Below, piece after piece: positions 3,131 through 64,000 of a stretch of 64,000 bases of DNA. The position numbers and the translations under genes are program-made. The notes beneath the pieces were generated by a model. It was not told where the DNA came from. It did no database searches and was given only the letters and a program-made list of their open reading frames with translations. Where the stretch lies: positions 434,001-498,000 of the forward strand of contig NKIN01000001.1 in the NCBI GenBank assembly GCA_002255905.1, in the 5' to 3' direction. The stretch's first letter is position 1. Every line of letters starts with the position of its first letter. Source of the DNA: Burkholderiales bacterium PBB1. Its GTDB lineage: Bacteria > Pseudomonadota > Gammaproteobacteria > Burkholderiales > Burkholderiaceae_C.

Positions 3131-5305
3131 TCATGCCACCAGGGCATCGGTGACGGGGTGGGCGGCTTTGCCGGCAGGGGCTGCGGTGTGCTCGAGCCAC
3201 GCGGCACCCGAGGTGCCCATCGTGAGCTGCCAGCCGGGTTCGACCAGGAAGCTGGTGCGCGGCGACTCGACCAGTGCCGGCCCCTGCAGCGTGGTGCCTT
3301 CGGCCAGCGTGTGCGCGTCGTAGATGCGGGTCATGACCGCACCGTCCACGCCCTGGAAGTGGCACTCGCGTTCGCCCCGTGGCGGCGGTGGCGCAACCCC
3401 TTTGCGGTCGCTGGGCTTGAGCTCCAGCCGGTCGTGCTGGACGAACGAGACGACGCGGATCACGTTGATGCGCACGCCGGCCTCCGGGGCCTGGCTGCCT
3501 TCGCCGAAGCGCTGCGCATAGTTGTGGCTGAACAGGTCGAGCAGTTCGATCACCTGCGTGGGCTTCTCCAGTCGGCGGAACGGGCTCACCACGGCCGTCT
3601 GGGCCAGCTGGTTGCCGTAGCGCAGGTCCAGCTCGACGCGCACCTTGATGTCAGCGTCCTGGGCCCCCTGGCGCCTGAGGTCCTCGCGGCCGCGCGCCTC
3701 CAGCGTGGCCACCGTGCTGTTGAACGACTCGAAGTCGTCCAGGATCTTGCGCTTGCCGGCGTCGAAGAGCATCTGGTAGACCGAGCTTTCGTGGATGTGC
3801 AGCTGGTCCATGTTGCCCGCGCCCAGTGCCGAGAACACGCAGCTGAACGGCGGGATCAGCACGCGGCTGATGCCGATCGCGCTGGAGAAGCCGCAGGCGT
3901 GCATCGGGCCGCCACCGCCGTAGGCGAGCAGCACGAAGTTCTTCGGGTTGTAGCCCTTGACTGCCACCTCCTTGAAGATGGCGGCTGCCATGTTGGCGTC
4001 GACCTTGCGCTTGATGGCCTTCGCGGCCTCGATCAGGCTCAGGCCCGAGGGCTTGCAGATGTGCTCCTCGATCGCGCGCTCGGCGCGTCGGCGGCTGAGC
4101 TCGATCGAGCCACCGGCGTAGTTCTTCTCGTCGAGGTAGCCGAGCACCAGGTTGGCGTCGGTGGTCGTGGGCAGCTTGCCGCCACGGCCGTAACAGGCGG
4201 GGCCCGGGTCGGAGCCTGCGCTCTGCGGGCCGACCTCGATGGCATTCCACATCCGGTCGAAACGCGCGATGGAGCCACCGCCTGCGCCCAGGGTGTGCAG
4301 GTAGGTCATCGGCGTGCTGACCAGCCAGCGCTCGATGATGGGGTTGAAGTCATAGAACTTCACACCGTCGGCGGTGACCAGCCCGATGTCGAAGCTGGTG
4401 CCACCCATGTCTGTTGCGATCAGGTTGGGCTGCTTGAACTCGCTCGACAGGTAGTTGGTGGCTTCCAGGCCAGCCACCGGACCCGAGTGGATGGTCTGCA
4501 GCGACGAGGTGGAATTCATCTGCGCCATGCCCGAGGTGTTGTGCACCAGCAGCATCGGCTTCTTGTAGCCGGCGCGTCGCAGCGCGATCTCCAGCGTCGA
4601 CATGCCGTGGTACATCTGGTCGTGCAGGAAGGCGTCGATGATCGAGGACATCGTTCGGGCGTACTCGCCCTTGCGGCCCGCCACGCGGTGCGACAGCACG
4701 ATGGGCATGGCGCCGAGCTGGTGCGTCGGGTACTCCGACAGGATGATGCGTTCGACGGCCTTCTCGTTCGCCGGGTTGAGCACCGAATTCACCAGGCACA
4801 CCACGAAGGCCTGCGCACCGGCGTCGACCAGCTTGCGGATCTGGGTGCGCACGTTGTCTTCGTCGATCGTGAGCAGGATGTCGCCCTTGTAGTCCACCCG
4901 TTCGTCGATGCCGACGATGCGTGACACCGGCACCAGCATCGGCGGCCGCGAGGCGCCGGGCAGGTCGGCCTGCTGCGCCTCGGACAAGCCGTCTCCGTAG
5001 CCCCGCGCCCGCATCAGCACCGCGGTCGACTCGAAGCCGGTGGTGGTCAGCAGCGCCACCTTCGGGCCCTTGCGCTGGATCAGCGCATTCGTGCCGAGCG
5101 TGGTGGCGTAGCGCACCGCATCGACGTTGGCCAGCACCTCGCCGATGTCCTTGCCGATGTCACGGCAGGCGCCTTCCAGCGCTTCCATGAACCCGGTGGC
5201 CAGGTTGTTGTGGGTCGTCAGAGCCTTCGACTCGACGTAGCGGCCGTCATAGGCCAGGAAGCAGTCGGTGAACGTGCCCCCGATGTCTACACTCACGCGC
5301 CTCAT
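3131..5305 (-). CDS. Hydantoinase A-like ATPase subunit of ketone carboxylase (second copy)
   Basis: A 724-residue HyuA-family ASKHA ATPase. The N-terminal phosphate-binding loop is VSVDIGGTFTDCF (residues 4-16), and a second nucleotide motif ATDMGGTSFDIGL lies near residue 290. In acetophenone carboxylase two such subunits are proposed to phosphorylate the ketone enolate and bicarbonate separately. The start ATG 5305 lies one base after the TGA of the small subunit (TGACATG). The ORF can extend to 5326, but that would overlap the upstream gene and lacks the family N-terminus. It is paralogous to the 5662-7593 gene but clearly diverged, as expected for alpha and alpha-prime subunits. Confidence 0.88.
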   Translation of the reverse strand: MRRVSVDIGGTFTDCFLAYDGRYVESKALTTHNNLATGFMEALEGACRDIGKDIGEVLANVDAVRYATTLGTNALIQRKGPKVALLTTTGFESTAVLMRARGYGDGLSEAQQADLPGASRPPMLVPVSRIVGIDERVDYKGDILLTIDEDNVRTQIRKLVDAGAQAFVVCLVNSVLNPANEKAVERIILSEYPTHQLGAMPIVLSHRVAGRKGEYARTMSSIIDAFLHDQMYHGMSTLEIALRRAGYKKPMLLVHNTSGMAQMNSTSSLQTIHSGPVAGLEATNYLSSEFKQPNLIATDMGGTSFDIGLVTADGVKFYDFNPIIERWLVSTPMTYLHTLGAGGGSIARFDRMWNAIEVGPQSAGSDPGPACYGRGGKLPTTTDANLVLGYLDEKNYAGGSIELSRRRAERAIEEHICKPSGLSLIEAAKAIKRKVDANMAAAIFKEVAVKGYNPKNFVLLAYGGGGPMHACGFSSAIGISRVLIPPFSCVFSALGAGNMDQLHIHESSVYQMLFDAGKRKILDDFESFNSTVATLEARGREDLRRQGAQDADIKVRVELDLRYGNQLAQTAVVSPFRRLEKPTQVIELLDLFSHNYAQRFGEGSQAPEAGVRINVIRVVSFVQHDRLELKPSDRKGVAPPPPRGERECHFQGVDGAVMTRIYDAHTLAEGTTLQGPALVESPRTSFLVEPGWQLTMGTSGAAWLEHTAAPAGKAAHPVTDALVA

Positions 5306-60489: not shown

Positions 60490-61290
60490 CTATTTGCGCT
60501 CGTTGCGTGCTAGCAATCGCAGCACGTGTTCCACCGGAATGGCGTAGCTGATGCCCGACGGATGTGTCAGCGCAGACTCCCGTGTACCTTTCAGGGCCAC
60601 CATGTTGATCACTCCGACGACAGCGCCTGTCTCTGCATCGAACACCGGACCGCCGCTGTTGCCGGGATAGGCCGTCGCGTCAAGTTGAAGCAAGTCGAAT
60701 GCGCCGTCCTTCAGGGCCTTGATGGCGCGACTGTCGAGCTGCCGCGCGCTCGGGCTGGGCAGGGCCACCGTTGTGATCGCCGACACGATGCCACGGTGGG
60801 TGACGGGCGACAGACCCAGGTTGCTGCCCAGCGGGAATCCGATGAAAGCGACCATCTGCCCTTCGCGCGCAGCCTGCGCCGCGCCCAAGGTGAGCACCGG
60901 CAAGGCGCTTCCCTCGAAGCGAAGCAGGGCCAGGTCATGTGCTTTGTCGATCTCGATCACCTCTAGGCTTCGCATGCTGTCTTGTCCTGATGCGCCAGGC
61001 GTGTAGACGACCAGGCTGCCGGCATCTGCGTCATCTTTTGTGGCGCGCGCGATCACATGCGCATTGGTCACCAGCAGGTTGCCGTCGCCAACAATGAAAC
61101 CTGTGCCGCTGAAGCCGAAGCGGGGGCTCTGCGTTTCCTTGTAGAAGCCGACGGCCAACACCGATGGCTTGAACTTGGCGATCAGGCTCGGAAGCGTATC
61201 TGCTGCGCTCGACATGGACGGCGCCATCACGATGGCTAGGCCAACCAAGTATCTTGAAGCTGCCCCCTTCAATGCTGCAAGTGCTCTCAT
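60490..61290 (-). CDS. Exported trypsin-like serine protease (S1C type)
   Basis: A 266-residue protein with a signal peptide (MRALAALKGAASRYLVGLAIVMAPSMSSAA). The triad is His in LLVTNAHVIAR, Asp in IDKAHDLALLRF and Ser in ATAYPGNSGGPVFDAETGAV. No PDZ domain follows. ATG 61290 gives the signal peptide; the ORF extends upstream to 61434 without one. It is a probable envelope protein quality or maturation protease. Transcribed in the same direction as the HPr-rel-A genes, 326 bases downstream. Confidence 0.82.
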   Translation of the reverse strand: MRALAALKGAASRYLVGLAIVMAPSMSSAADTLPSLIAKFKPSVLAVGFYKETQSPRFGFSGTGFIVGDGNLLVTNAHVIARATKDDADAGSLVVYTPGASGQDSMRSLEVIEIDKAHDLALLRFEGSALPVLTLGAAQAAREGQMVAFIGFPLGSNLGLSPVTHRGIVSAITTVALPSPSARQLDSRAIKALKDGAFDLLQLDATAYPGNSGGPVFDAETGAVVGVINMVALKGTRESALTHPSGISYAIPVEHVLRLLARNERK

Positions 61291-61616
61291 ACCGTCCGCT
61301 CCACTGGTCGTGTCCCAGCGCATGGTGTAAGTCCACAGCCCGGAAAGAGCTGAGATGCTCAGTACTAGCGTGCCACTGTGGGCAGCCGAGTGGGCACAGT
61401 ATCGCTGAGAGTTTTGCAACCGCTCAAGCTGCATCTAGCGCCGGGTCACGTCGGCCGAAGCGGCCGAATCGATCCTGTTGTTCGTACACTTTGGCATCGG
61501 CAGTCCTCGGTTGTCACGGGCGTCAGATACCTATGACAGCCGGCTCAGCCATGAGGCTGCCGACCTACTGCTGATGAAATTTCCGGGCTAGCCTGAATCG
61601 CGCGGGGCGCGGACGC
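61291..61616. other. 326-base intergenic stretch with a short perfect hairpin
   Basis: Lies between the nucleotidyltransferase stop and the protease start. It contains TCGGCCG-AAG-CGGCCGA (61451-61467), a 7-bp inverted repeat with a 3-base loop and no T-tract. Part of the region (61291-61434) is an in-frame extension of the protease. No other gene is seen, and no convincing sigma-54 (-24/-12) site. Confidence 0.5.
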
Positions 61617-62696
61617 TCAGTCCGCGACGAAGAGCTTGTGCGACACGTGCCGGACAAGCAACGGCAATGGCATGCGCAACCAATGGCTGCGGACGAAGAT
61701 CGCGCCGTGCGCCAAGCGCGTCGAGCGCCCGAATGCCGAGGCGTGCGCAGGCCGCAGCGCATGGTCGAACAGCCAGGCACGCCAGCTGCGAGGCCAGGGG
61801 CTGGCGGCGCAGCGCGAGAGTTCGTCGCCCACGGGCTCTGGCACGGTGGTGTTGTAGACGCGCTGACACTGCTGCAACGCGTCCAGCACCGGCAGTCCGA
61901 GCTGCAGCTGCCGCGCCCGCTCGACCAACGCCCGCCAGAACCCAGGTTGGCGTGAAAAATCGCTGAGCAGGGCGTCGAGATCGAACAGGTCTCGCAAGCC
62001 TTTGTGGAACTCGCCAAAGAAGAGGTGACAGGCTGAATGGATGACCATGTCGGTCGGCGCCAGCACGCGGAAGAACGACCATTCGCCCACCAGCGCCGTC
62101 GACTGGGCAAACAAGTCCGCCGGGTCCGGGCGAATGCCCGAGGTGGGGGGCAGGATGGTGTGGTGCACGTCGAGCACGGTGCCCCGGTTCTTGTGCTCGA
62201 GCGGCGGTATCTCGTGCATCCACTCGCGGTAGTAGCGCTCGTCGTAGGCCGTGGTCAGGGCAGGAAACCATCCCGCCCAGTGCAGGCGCTCTTCGACCTG
62301 CGGCAGCGCTGCCTTGGGCACCATCAGGTCGATGTCGTTGAAGATGCGCCCCATGGCCGCTGGATGGGACATGGCCGCATACGCGGCTCCCTTGAGCAGC
62401 AGCACTGGCACGCCCAGCGGCTGCAGTGCCTCTTGCAAGCCGCGCAACTCATGGCGCACGGCTGATGCATGCCGCGTCGCGATGGTGCTGGCCAGCCCGA
62501 GGTGGCGCCGCGCCGCTTCGGGTGCCAGATCCAGGACCCCGCTGTCGCTGAGCCTGCTGTGCAACTGGGCCATCAACTCTGCAGCACGGCTTTGCCACAC
62601 CAGGCGTTCCCAATCGGTCTTGACGAAACCCCGGACACTCTCCGGGTGGCCAAGCGTGGCACTCAGCAGCGTCGGCTTGTCAGGCGCGCGCGTCAT
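61617..62696 (-). CDS. Nucleotidyltransferase-family protein of the HPr-rel-A cluster
   Basis: A 359-residue protein of the uncharacterised nucleotidyltransferase family (MNT/KNTase-like fold). It has LLLKGAAYA near residue 99 and GRIFNDIDLMVP, with the DxD metal-binding pair at 121-123. A helical C-terminal part of about 200 residues with HSACHLFF near 240 follows. Family members are found beside HprK-like kinases and PqqD-like chaperones, and in lasso-type peptide clusters. The substrate is unknown. Its ATG overlaps the kinase stop (ATGA). Confidence 0.75.
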   Translation of the reverse strand: MTRAPDKPTLLSATLGHPESVRGFVKTDWERLVWQSRAAELMAQLHSRLSDSGVLDLAPEAARRHLGLASTIATRHASAVRHELRGLQEALQPLGVPVLLLKGAAYAAMSHPAAMGRIFNDIDLMVPKAALPQVEERLHWAGWFPALTTAYDERYYREWMHEIPPLEHKNRGTVLDVHHTILPPTSGIRPDPADLFAQSTALVGEWSFFRVLAPTDMVIHSACHLFFGEFHKGLRDLFDLDALLSDFSRQPGFWRALVERARQLQLGLPVLDALQQCQRVYNTTVPEPVGDELSRCAASPWPRSWRAWLFDHALRPAHASAFGRSTRLAHGAIFVRSHWLRMPLPLLVRHVSHKLFVAD

Positions 62697-63610
62697 TCGA
62701 TCTCGCGCCACAGGCGATCGATCTCGGGTATGACCTGGTCGAAGGACGCATAGCTGATGCGGTGCGCGTGCACGCCTTCGACAAAACGGCATAGTGCATC
62801 GAAGCCCTCACCGGCCAACACCGATGCGTTGAAGGCGTGCCGGGTGAGTTCGAGCAGGGCGTGGGCGCGGCCCTCAGCGCGGCTGTCCAGTGCGGCGCCG
62901 GCCTCGTAACGCGGGAAGACCAGCATCGCCGGCCGGGCGCGCTGATCCATTGCCAGAACACTTGCACGCGGAGGCCGCATGTGGGCGACCGAGCCCTTGG
63001 CCGTGTCGCGGCAGACCTCGCTGAGCACGATGTCGGGTCCGAGGCCGCGCACCACGTCGATCGATGCGTTCTTCAAGCTGATGGGCCGCGCGATCGGGTG
63101 CACGGTCCCGTCGGCGAGCGACACCAGGGTCAGCTCATCCGACAGCAGGCGCCAGCCCCGATGCACAAGGGCCGCACACAGTGTGCTCTTGCCCGATCCT
63201 GGGTCGGCGGCCAGGACCAGGGCGCGCCCTCCGCGCTCGACCACGGCCGCGTGCAGCACCAGGCAGTCGTGGGCGTGCGACGAAATGACCCAGTTGAGGC
63301 CCCATTCGAGCATCGGCACGGCCTGGGCCAGCGGCAGGGGCTTGAAAGGGATGCGCCCGTCGCACAGCAACAGCGCCTGCGGTCGCAGATGGCGGCGCAT
63401 GGCGTTGGGTGCACGCACTGTGACCTCGAAGTCGACATAGGTGTCGGCTGGGTCTAGCACGGCGAAGTCGCGGTAGAGCTGGGTGATGCCAGCGGCGATC
63501 TGGGGCAGCCCAGACCGCAGACGGACATTGAAACTGCCGCAGCGCATCAAAAGCCCGGGGTCGTCGAGACGGGCATGCAGGGCGGCCGGGGCGAGATCTG
63601 CGACCCTCAA
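62693..63610 (-). CDS. HprK-related kinase A
   Basis: A 305-residue protein with the HPr kinase/phosphorylase fold but no HPr-binding context. Walker A ADPGSGKST lies at residues 135-143, an SDELTLV block near 163, and the C-terminal VSLKNASIDVVRG-like and DTAKGSVAHMRPP segments match the HprK-rel-A family. The start is TTG 63610, overlapping the PqqD-like stop in TTGA; no better start exists. Such kinases are proposed to phosphorylate a peptide or protein Ser. Coupled to both neighbours. Confidence 0.78.
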   Translation of the reverse strand: MRVADLAPAALHARLDDPGLLMRCGSFNVRLRSGLPQIAAGITQLYRDFAVLDPADTYVDFEVTVRAPNAMRRHLRPQALLLCDGRIPFKPLPLAQAVPMLEWGLNWVISSHAHDCLVLHAAVVERGGRALVLAADPGSGKSTLCAALVHRGWRLLSDELTLVSLADGTVHPIARPISLKNASIDVVRGLGPDIVLSEVCRDTAKGSVAHMRPPRASVLAMDQRARPAMLVFPRYEAGAALDSRAEGRAHALLELTRHAFNASVLAGEGFDALCRFVEGVHAHRISYASFDQVIPEIDRLWREIE

Positions 63611-63861
63611 GTGATGGGATCTAGGATCTTGAGATCCACCAGGCTCTGCCACTCGGACGCTGTGATGGCCGGGGTTTGATGCAACGAGCCTTGGGACGCG
63701 GCTGTCGGTGCCGCAGCGTCGAACCCGACCAGTGCCTGAAACCAAGCCGTGTCCAGCAAATGCGTCTCGCAGGTTTCAGGCACGTAGACCACGAGTCCGT
63801 CGTCGAAAGCCCGCCATTGCACGCCGGCTTTGATACGCAGACCGTGTAATGGCAGAACCAT
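63607..63861 (-). CDS. HPr-rel-A system PqqD-like peptide chaperone
   Basis: An 84-residue PqqD-like (RiPP recognition element) protein: WRAFDDGLVVYVPETCETHLLDTAWFQALVGFD, then a helical C-terminal part ending LVDLKILDPIT. PqqD-fold proteins bind leader peptides of ribosomal peptides and present them to modifying enzymes. Translationally coupled to the kinase by a TTGA overlap. It starts 12 bases after the stop of a small ORF that is the obvious candidate client. Confidence 0.78.
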   Translation of the reverse strand: MVLPLHGLRIKAGVQWRAFDDGLVVYVPETCETHLLDTAWFQALVGFDAAAPTAASQGSLHQTPAITASEWQSLVDLKILDPIT

Positions 63862-63873
63862 GCAGGCCGTCCG

Positions 63874-63984
63874 TCAGTGCTCGGGGCTGCCGTTGCACCA
63901 GAGGTCGGTGGTCCTCGAGTAGATGTCGACCTTTTGCACGAACTCTGTGAAAGCGGCCTTCTTGCCATTGGCGGAAGTCGCCAT
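63874..63984 (-). CDS. Candidate small peptide (possible substrate of the HPr-rel-A cluster)
   Basis: A 36-residue reading frame from ATG 63984 to TGA 63876-63874. The first 17 residues are MATSANGKKAAFTEFVQ, continuing KVDIYSRTTDLWCNGSPEH. The frame stays open upstream to the window edge, so it may be the C-terminus of a longer protein. It has mixed charge, one Cys and one Trp, and a Ser/Thr-rich core beside a kinase gene. The PqqD-like gene follows after 12 bases. No family is recognised. Confidence 0.4.
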   Translation of the reverse strand: MATSANGKKAAFTEFVQKVDIYSRTTDLWCNGSPEH

Positions 63985-64000
63985 CGTGGCTTTGTCGCAA

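Follow-up and report, generated by a model that had tools for sequence, protein, structure and literature searches.

The nearest published system to the one described here is that of the linear polyphosphorylated peptides (LPPs) of Bacillota, in which, according to the portions of the 2026 report used here (PMC13381572), the kinase LppK phosphorylates Ser3 of the LPP core several times. In lasso peptide clusters, the kinases PadeK and PsmK phosphorylate a C-terminal Ser, PsmN puts a hexose on the phosphate, and a His-Lys-Asp-Asp motif characterizes the kinases (excerpts of PMC9266682). A system named HPr-rel-A is annotated in NCBIfam through a kinase family (TIGR04352) and a PqqD-family chaperone (TIGR04353), and scans of NCBIfam and Pfam gave no family for the client described below. 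In this work, we analysed a stretch of 64,000 nucleotides from Burkholderiales bacterium PBB1 (GCA_002255905.1, contig NKIN01000001.1; G000:C16:434001-498000), hereafter the window, which carries near its end a cassette of this type: genes for a PqqD-like protein predicted to be a RiPP recognition element (RRE; RiPP, ribosomally synthesized and post-translationally modified peptide), an HprK-related kinase and a nucleotidyltransferase. A 217-residue protein with a leader of twin-arginine translocation (Tat) type, encoded directly upstream, is the regular partner of the cassette and probably its modification target, or client. This provides a likely client and candidate modification sites for an HPr-rel-A cassette that is annotated, yet unexplained, in many beta- and gammaproteobacterial genomes.

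Our best reading, to which we give a probability of about 0.6, is that a modification operon located in an XrtA/exopolysaccharide region phosphorylates a Tat-exported protein under RRE guidance and perhaps decorates it further. The case for pairing client and cassette rests on gene content and association, on the leader, the invariant serines and the conserved catalytic residues, and on the match between kinase clade and client class; the RRE-like fold, predicted by modelling, is also part of it. The genes concerned are the following, positions marked L002 being equal to the window position minus 59000:

63607..63861, minus strand: PqqD-like protein of 84 amino acids with a predicted RRE fold (TIGR04353, 15.7 bits, cut-off 35; model and PDB matches)
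62693..63610, minus strand: HprK-related kinase A, whose TTG start overlaps the RRE stop (TIGR04352, 361.6 bits, cut-off 200; His, Lys, Asp and Glu invariant)
61617..62696, minus strand: nucleotidyltransferase family protein, NTP_transf_5 (PF14907, 183.2 bits, cut-off 31.2; present in 69 of 69 cassettes)
63874..64000, minus strand: 3' part of the client gene (217 amino acids), which continues past the window to L002:5527, equal to window position 64527
63874..63984, minus strand: 36-codon frame, corresponding to client codons 182-217 and no separate gene (reading of the assembly and comparison with relatives)

The full client open reading frame (ORF) occupies L002:4874-5527, and the window end falls inside it. 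The three cassette genes overlap by four bases each, TTGA between the PqqD-like protein and the kinase and ATGA between the kinase and the nucleotidyltransferase, as a first-pass annotation of the window had reported with coordinates that proved correct. The four-base overlap of RRE and kinase genes, in the frame of the kinase, recurs in 34 of the 68 cassettes with a recognised RRE.

The association between client and cassette was surveyed in 399 genomes drawn from one order and in 80 named loci, the best 80 of at least 334 kinase relatives. HprK_rel_A scored over its cut-off in 68 of the 399 genomes, which contributed the 69 cassettes studied, since one genome (G363) carries two. A leader-bearing client ORF neighbours all 69, recognised by a first profile in 65, by a class II profile in three and by eye in one (L072). 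The first profile, grown from the 217-residue protein, gave those 65 homologues at E<0.05, and 58 also passed E<=1e-3; the client lies upstream of the kinase in 58 of the 65 and downstream, past the nucleotidyltransferase, in seven, and in the remaining four cassettes it is always upstream. The client of L072, unlike the others, consists of a twin-arginine leader, an Asn/Gly stretch and a Ser-rich low-complexity tail, and ends just before the kinase frame. Among the named loci, a client match was obtained in 79 of 80, one of them downstream (L203), and the single miss (L205) is a 3.8-kb contig that ends 355 bases before the kinase match. These loci come from genera such as Massilia, Duganella, Rubrivivax, Noviherbaspirillum, Thiobacillus, Sulfuricella and Gallionella, as well as Methylobacter, Thioalkalivibrio and Malonomonas. 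Thirty systems appear twice in the locus numbering, as L003-L032 and again as L111-L140, and the overlap of the named loci with the genome set leaves 136 unique clients of 143.

The long-client profile matched 55 of the 399 genomes, 51 of which have the kinase. In the four kinase-less genomes the matches were partial, two to the downstream domain in ORFs of more than 1000 amino acids and two to the leader, the ORFs there being 432 and 566 amino acids long, and the search with this profile found no full-length client in the 331 genomes without the kinase. Within the 51, the match was confined to the leader in three genomes (G015, G063 and G303) and to the domain, within a 1597-residue ORF, in G067. 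The 17 kinase genomes without a long-profile match all carry short clients, 12 of class II, three of class III and two of other kinds, classes II and III having been defined by us from alignments. The alternative that survives best is that the client is an ordinary exported protein whose position reflects shared regulation, the cassette acting on another peptide or on an HPr-like regulator. Modification of the client is indeed so far deduced from sequence, large ORFs devoid of leader and serines contain its downstream domain as well, and the agreement between kinase and client classes could come from shared ancestry alone; however, a client stands beside every cassette examined, no full-length form turned up in the 331 kinase-less genomes, and the cassette includes an RRE, a module whose role elsewhere is leader binding. 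We regard this alternative as improbable, if still a serious contender.

Long clients (class I) begin with about 15-35 residues, followed by the twin Arg and a hydrophobic stretch ending in a small-residue site; after this leader come a Cys, a Ser-rich segment and a domain with a PGYWKNH-like stretch. Over all classes, clients measure about 135-260 amino acids. Judged by its sequence, the leader conforms to the Tat type, with twin Arg plus a hydrophobic position, a hydrophobic stretch and a small-residue site. The pattern RRx[FLIMV] is present in 125 of the 136 unique clients; as clients were located via RR this is partly built in, yet none of the 66 handled lacked RR. In an alignment of 35 chosen long clients, located by their RR (A1), the only invariant columns are Met1, Arg25, Arg26, Ser57 and Ser61. 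Shuffling predicts the motif S-x3-S-[GA]-[NG]-x-S after the leader in 0.4 of 120 long clients; it was observed in 71, and the looser S-x3-S-[GANM] in 103 (25.9 predicted). L032, a truncated duplicate of L053, and L091, an uncertain case, are excluded from this count, which scores as misses L151, L214 and L216, in which the script misplaced the leader. Short clients have the same leader, and within 40 residues of the C-terminus 18 of 20, where 0.13 would be expected, show [ST][ACS][WYFL]xS[FLIV], a motif found in none of the 120 long clients; the two misses, L078 and L080, have Ala at its first place. A Sphingomonas plasmid client, from a record outside the pattern set, ends TCFLSVQNPRT and thus matches the C-terminal motif.

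An alternative role for the residues after the leader would be folding or anchoring, via a disulfide or as a lipoprotein, with the modification site elsewhere in the client. In 111 of the 120 long clients a Cys does precede S-x3-S by at most six residues, and C73 is nearly invariant. In a lipobox the Cys occupies a set place relative to the cleavage site, whereas here, by eye, its distance from the presumed cleavage site varies, and it is the serines, not the preceding Cys, that form invariant columns. This explanation seems to us unlikely.

Little is annotated for the client itself, which is a "hypothetical protein" in both annotated records examined. Scans of NCBIfam and Pfam assigned the window client to no family and gave weak single-member matches among the 35 clients, and no Pfam family was found for the PGYWKNH-like domain. 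Its AlphaFold2 model (mean predicted local distance difference test score, pLDDT, of 67.7) has low confidence over the first 60 residues, followed by a helical domain, and matched nothing in the PDB at E<=0.001. The downstream domain has four relatives in large ORFs whose matches do not extend beyond model positions 72-180. These relatives have neither leader nor serines, which therefore belong to the cassette-linked form. At loci L221-L224 the PGYWKNH-like domain of the long clients was seen in ORFs of more than 1000 amino acids; two of the genomes concerned have the cassette and two do not. A PEP-CTERM protein has a C-terminal PEP motif, a transmembrane helix and a basic tail; the window client, inspected by eye, ends DLWCNGSPEH with no C-terminal hydrophobic stretch.

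The enzymes are well conserved. The kinases of all 69 cassettes share the catalytic His, the Walker Lys, the Asp and the Glu that follows it, the PF14907 enzyme is likewise found in each, and an RRE was recognised in 68. In L091 (4162..5490) the RRE profile matches residues 9-49 of a 442-residue kinase frame, an apparent N-terminal RRE-kinase fusion. The small proteins of relatives exceeded the TIGR04353 cut-off in all ten cases scanned, and that of the window, short and divergent, matched no Pfam family. The predicted fold of the latter (model mean pLDDT 79.9) resembles that of RREs: the 13 best PDB matches are all RREs or, like CteB and ThcOx, enzymes carrying an RRE, and the first is TbiB1 with bound leader (E 0.013). 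On a Vibrio alfacsensis plasmid (NZ_CP140104.1, L227) an unannotated ORF of 84 amino acids (4215..4469), without NCBIfam match, takes the position of the RRE, with the client on one side and the kinase on the other. The sole PF05402 (PqqD) match of the PBB1 genome is outside the window (G000:C16:241801-241956, L001), in a long frame that contains the motif HEFGH and adjoins an HlyD-like frame, both named by eye. A kinase tree from a quick search, midpoint-rooted and with support only from the SH-aLRT (Shimodaira-Hasegawa-like approximate likelihood ratio test), has a branch with support 99 that parts the kinases of classes II and III and of the two odd clients from those of class I and L072. 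Client labels require four changes on this tree, on which L098 is a long branch, against 19.9 in shuffles, a clustering that would also follow from shared ancestry alone. No kinase relatives were found in the scan of viral contigs.

The setting of the cassette would suit a role in the extracellular matrix, and the PEP-CTERM link suggested in the first-pass annotation holds, as the cassette lies in a PEP-CTERM/XrtA region. An EpsB glycosyltransferase gene of XrtA type (TIGR03013), on the same strand, ends 58 bases before the start of the client ORF, genes for PrsK and PrsR (TIGR02916, TIGR02915) flank the unit, and 16 kb separate the kinase gene from xrtA. XrtA was recognised above cut-off in 64 of the 68 genomes with the kinase, compared with 34 of the 331 lacking it (Fisher p about 1e-43, overstated since the genomes are related). 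Kinase and xrtA share one contig in 28 genomes, 27 computed and one (G167) added by hand; they are within 84 kb in 22 and about 104 kb apart in one. TatC is present in PBB1 and in 64 of the 68 kinase genomes, which is only permissive for Tat export. Directly downstream of the nucleotidyltransferase gene, at window positions 60490..61434 on the minus strand, there is a gene for a trypsin-fold protease resembling HtrA/DegP, below family cut-offs; a loosely clustered relative is located at most 2.8 kb from the kinase in 16 of the 69 cassettes, and it is possible that this protease processes the client.

For the best reading we infer leader binding, phosphorylation and its sites, a second modification, Tat export and a matrix role in the following manner. 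In the cytoplasm the RRE would bind the twin-arginine leader and present the client to the HprK-related kinase, which would phosphorylate conserved serines once or more, in long clients just past the leader (Ser57/Ser61 in the window client) and in short clients at a C-terminal Ser. A nucleotide or a sugar could then be attached to the phosphate by the PF14907 enzyme, after which the modified client would exit via Tat, signal peptidase would remove the leader, and the product would act in the extracellular matrix whose exopolysaccharide genes flank the cassette. Tat transports folded proteins, and thus an ATP-dependent modification in the cytoplasm before export would suit this route. By analogy, the precedent of HprK-like kinases that phosphorylate Ser of RRE-served precursors suggests client phosphorylation as the likely mechanism here. 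Both published types of site would have counterparts, serines close to the leader in class I and a C-terminal one in classes II and III, and the two groups of clients go with separate kinase clades. In the portions of PMC13381572 used, the LPP authors place their loci near capsule genes and call a biofilm role a tempting speculation still to be tested; the XrtA link found here would point the same way.

Several observations weigh against this reading. The looser serine motif is missing from 17 of the 120 long clients, three of them through a misplaced leader, the bare S-x3-S is weak evidence (119 of 120 against 67 expected), and the serine motifs were defined after the alignments had been seen. 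A Vibrio plasmid client, outside the pattern set, has the leader and SGNAS with Thr in place of the first Ser. The PqqD-like protein of the window scores under the TIGR04353 cut-off and its model has no PDB match at E<=0.001; in one of the 69 cassettes (L092) no RRE was seen. Among the 68 kinase genomes, XrtA was not over cut-off in four and TatC was not found in four, and kinase and xrtA are more than 600 kb apart in five of the 28 genomes with both on one contig. Moreover, LppN is described as inactive in its host (PMC13381572, in the portions used).

In its boldest form, which we consider possible and hold only tentatively, the RRE-guided kinase and the PF14907 enzyme would together equip conserved serines of Tat substrates, prior to export, with an adduct linked through phosphate and possibly of sugar-phosphate type; kinase clades would be paired with client classes according to the site, near the leader or at the C-terminus, and the adduct would fix the protein to XrtA-linked exopolysaccharide. 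Its probability was set slightly lower because the kinase tree gives one supported branch and not two. If the best reading is true, RRE-guided phosphorylation would reach beyond small peptides to exported proteins of 135-260 residues, and RiPP enzymes would be joined to Tat export and to exopolysaccharide/PEP-CTERM matrix building; the boldest form would imply a widespread and undescribed system for protein modification and matrix coupling.

The first-pass annotation had proposed as client the 36-residue peptide itself, phosphorylated or nucleotidylated by the cassette, which would make it a separate small RiPP precursor. The frame exists, has an ATG and stops 12 bases ahead of the PqqD-like gene start, and its WCNGSPE-like last residues are similar among the five closest homologues, yet as an independent gene it was rejected: once the sequence is extended past the window, the frame is residues 182-217 of the 217-residue ORF, in frame with a protein that has homologues over its length. 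The annotation had allowed that the frame might prove to be the tail of an unrelated larger gene; it is such a tail, though the larger gene is the regular partner of the cassette. The ATG of the short frame is kept in one of four close relatives (in L141, the nearest, and not in L142, L143 or L161). By eye, no Shine-Dalgarno-like stretch precedes the small frame, and GAGG precedes the ATG of the long ORF. In comparisons with L141 and L142, the two nearest named relatives (kinase identity 96% and 77%), whole-ORF dN and dS are 0.05 and 0.15 for the former (dN/dS = 0.34) and 0.28 and 1.47 for the latter (dN/dS = 0.19, with dS near saturation). Against L141, nonsynonymous and synonymous changes number 7:1 in the last 36 codons and 13:20 in the first 181; in these small numbers the tail evolves faster than the rest, which speaks against a conserved peptide there. 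A helix at residues 188-208 of the client model falls in this tail with low confidence (block pLDDT about 50-70). The C-terminal Ser of CNGSPEH is unlikely to be a modification site, Asp being found there in two of the five closest homologues. Translation of a small precursor from an internal start is therefore very improbable. The earlier observation is thus partly confirmed and its interpretation partly supported: a tailoring cassette (RRE, HprK-like kinase and nucleotidyltransferase) has a likely client encoded directly upstream, namely the 217-residue protein with its Tat-like leader.

A lasso-peptide system with its cyclase and leader protease elsewhere in the genome deserves hardly any credence and was rejected, for although the tailoring enzymes are as in the paeninodin and pseudomycoidin clusters and genes of the Asn-synthetase family (PF00733) lie 19, 36 and 44 kb from the kinase, the B2 protease family PF13471 is absent from the PBB1 genome and occurs in one of 68 cassette genomes, there on another contig, the clients are far longer than lasso precursors, and the nearest Asn-synthetase-family gene is 2.7 kb from xrtA and presumably encodes the amidotransferase of the XrtA locus. 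In PBB1, no macrolactam cyclase was found next to the precursor. The earlier remark that a B2-type protease is missing stands, and the one that there is no cyclase holds for the vicinity of the cassette, given the more distant Asn-synthetase-family genes.

A literature search, outside which lay most subscription papers and all of bioRxiv, found no paper on HPr-rel-A, TIGR04352, TIGR04353 or HprK-related kinase A, and none that brings together any three of exosortase, PqqD, HprK, PEP-CTERM and nucleotidyltransferase. No twin-arginine appeared among the matches listed for RiPP, RRE and kinase, two RRE papers searched by term made no mention of HPr, kinase, exosortase or nucleotidyltransferase, and the text of PMC13381572 contains neither Pseudomonadota, proteobacteri-, exosortase nor twin-arginine. 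Compared with the annotated HPr-rel-A system, the window kinase is a TIGR04352 member, whereas the PqqD-like protein is under the TIGR04353 cut-off that all ten small proteins scanned from relatives pass.

As in the paeninodin and pseudomycoidin clusters, where an HprK-like kinase and an annotated nucleotidyltransferase act on a Ser of an RRE-served precursor, the C-terminal Ser of which resembles the site of our short clients (excerpts of PMC9266682), the cassette combines the same types of enzyme; unlike them, it has no B2 protease in 67 of 68 genomes, no cyclase beside it and no lasso-type precursor. The LPP loci, in the portions of PMC13381572 used, also differ: precursors have 35-200 amino acids and a YxxPxVLxHQxIxFETxxS leader, and the loci include a SipW-like signal peptidase of their own and an MsbA-like exporter. 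That leader motif does not occur in the window client, whose leader is RRRLGKLGAGGTAAVLSVASRSAVA, and neither a SipW-like peptidase nor an MsbA-like transporter family recurs among the named neighbours of the cassettes, not every neighbour being identified. Here, a Tat-like leader, clients of about 135-260 amino acids, an XrtA/PEP-CTERM setting and mostly Pseudomonadota take their place. The likenesses to LPP loci, as far as the same portions of PMC13381572 go, are a discrete RRE, an HprK-like kinase and an NTP transferase with no adjacent cyclase (here the nearest Asn-synthetase-family gene is 19 kb away), precursors conserved at the N-terminus and variable at the C-terminus, proximity to polysaccharide genes, and a kinase site, Ser3, directly after the leader, where the candidate serines of long clients are found. 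An RRE, kinase and nucleotidyltransferase kind of system is thus already known from LPPs and lasso peptides, and the cassette described here is a variant of it with a larger, exported client.

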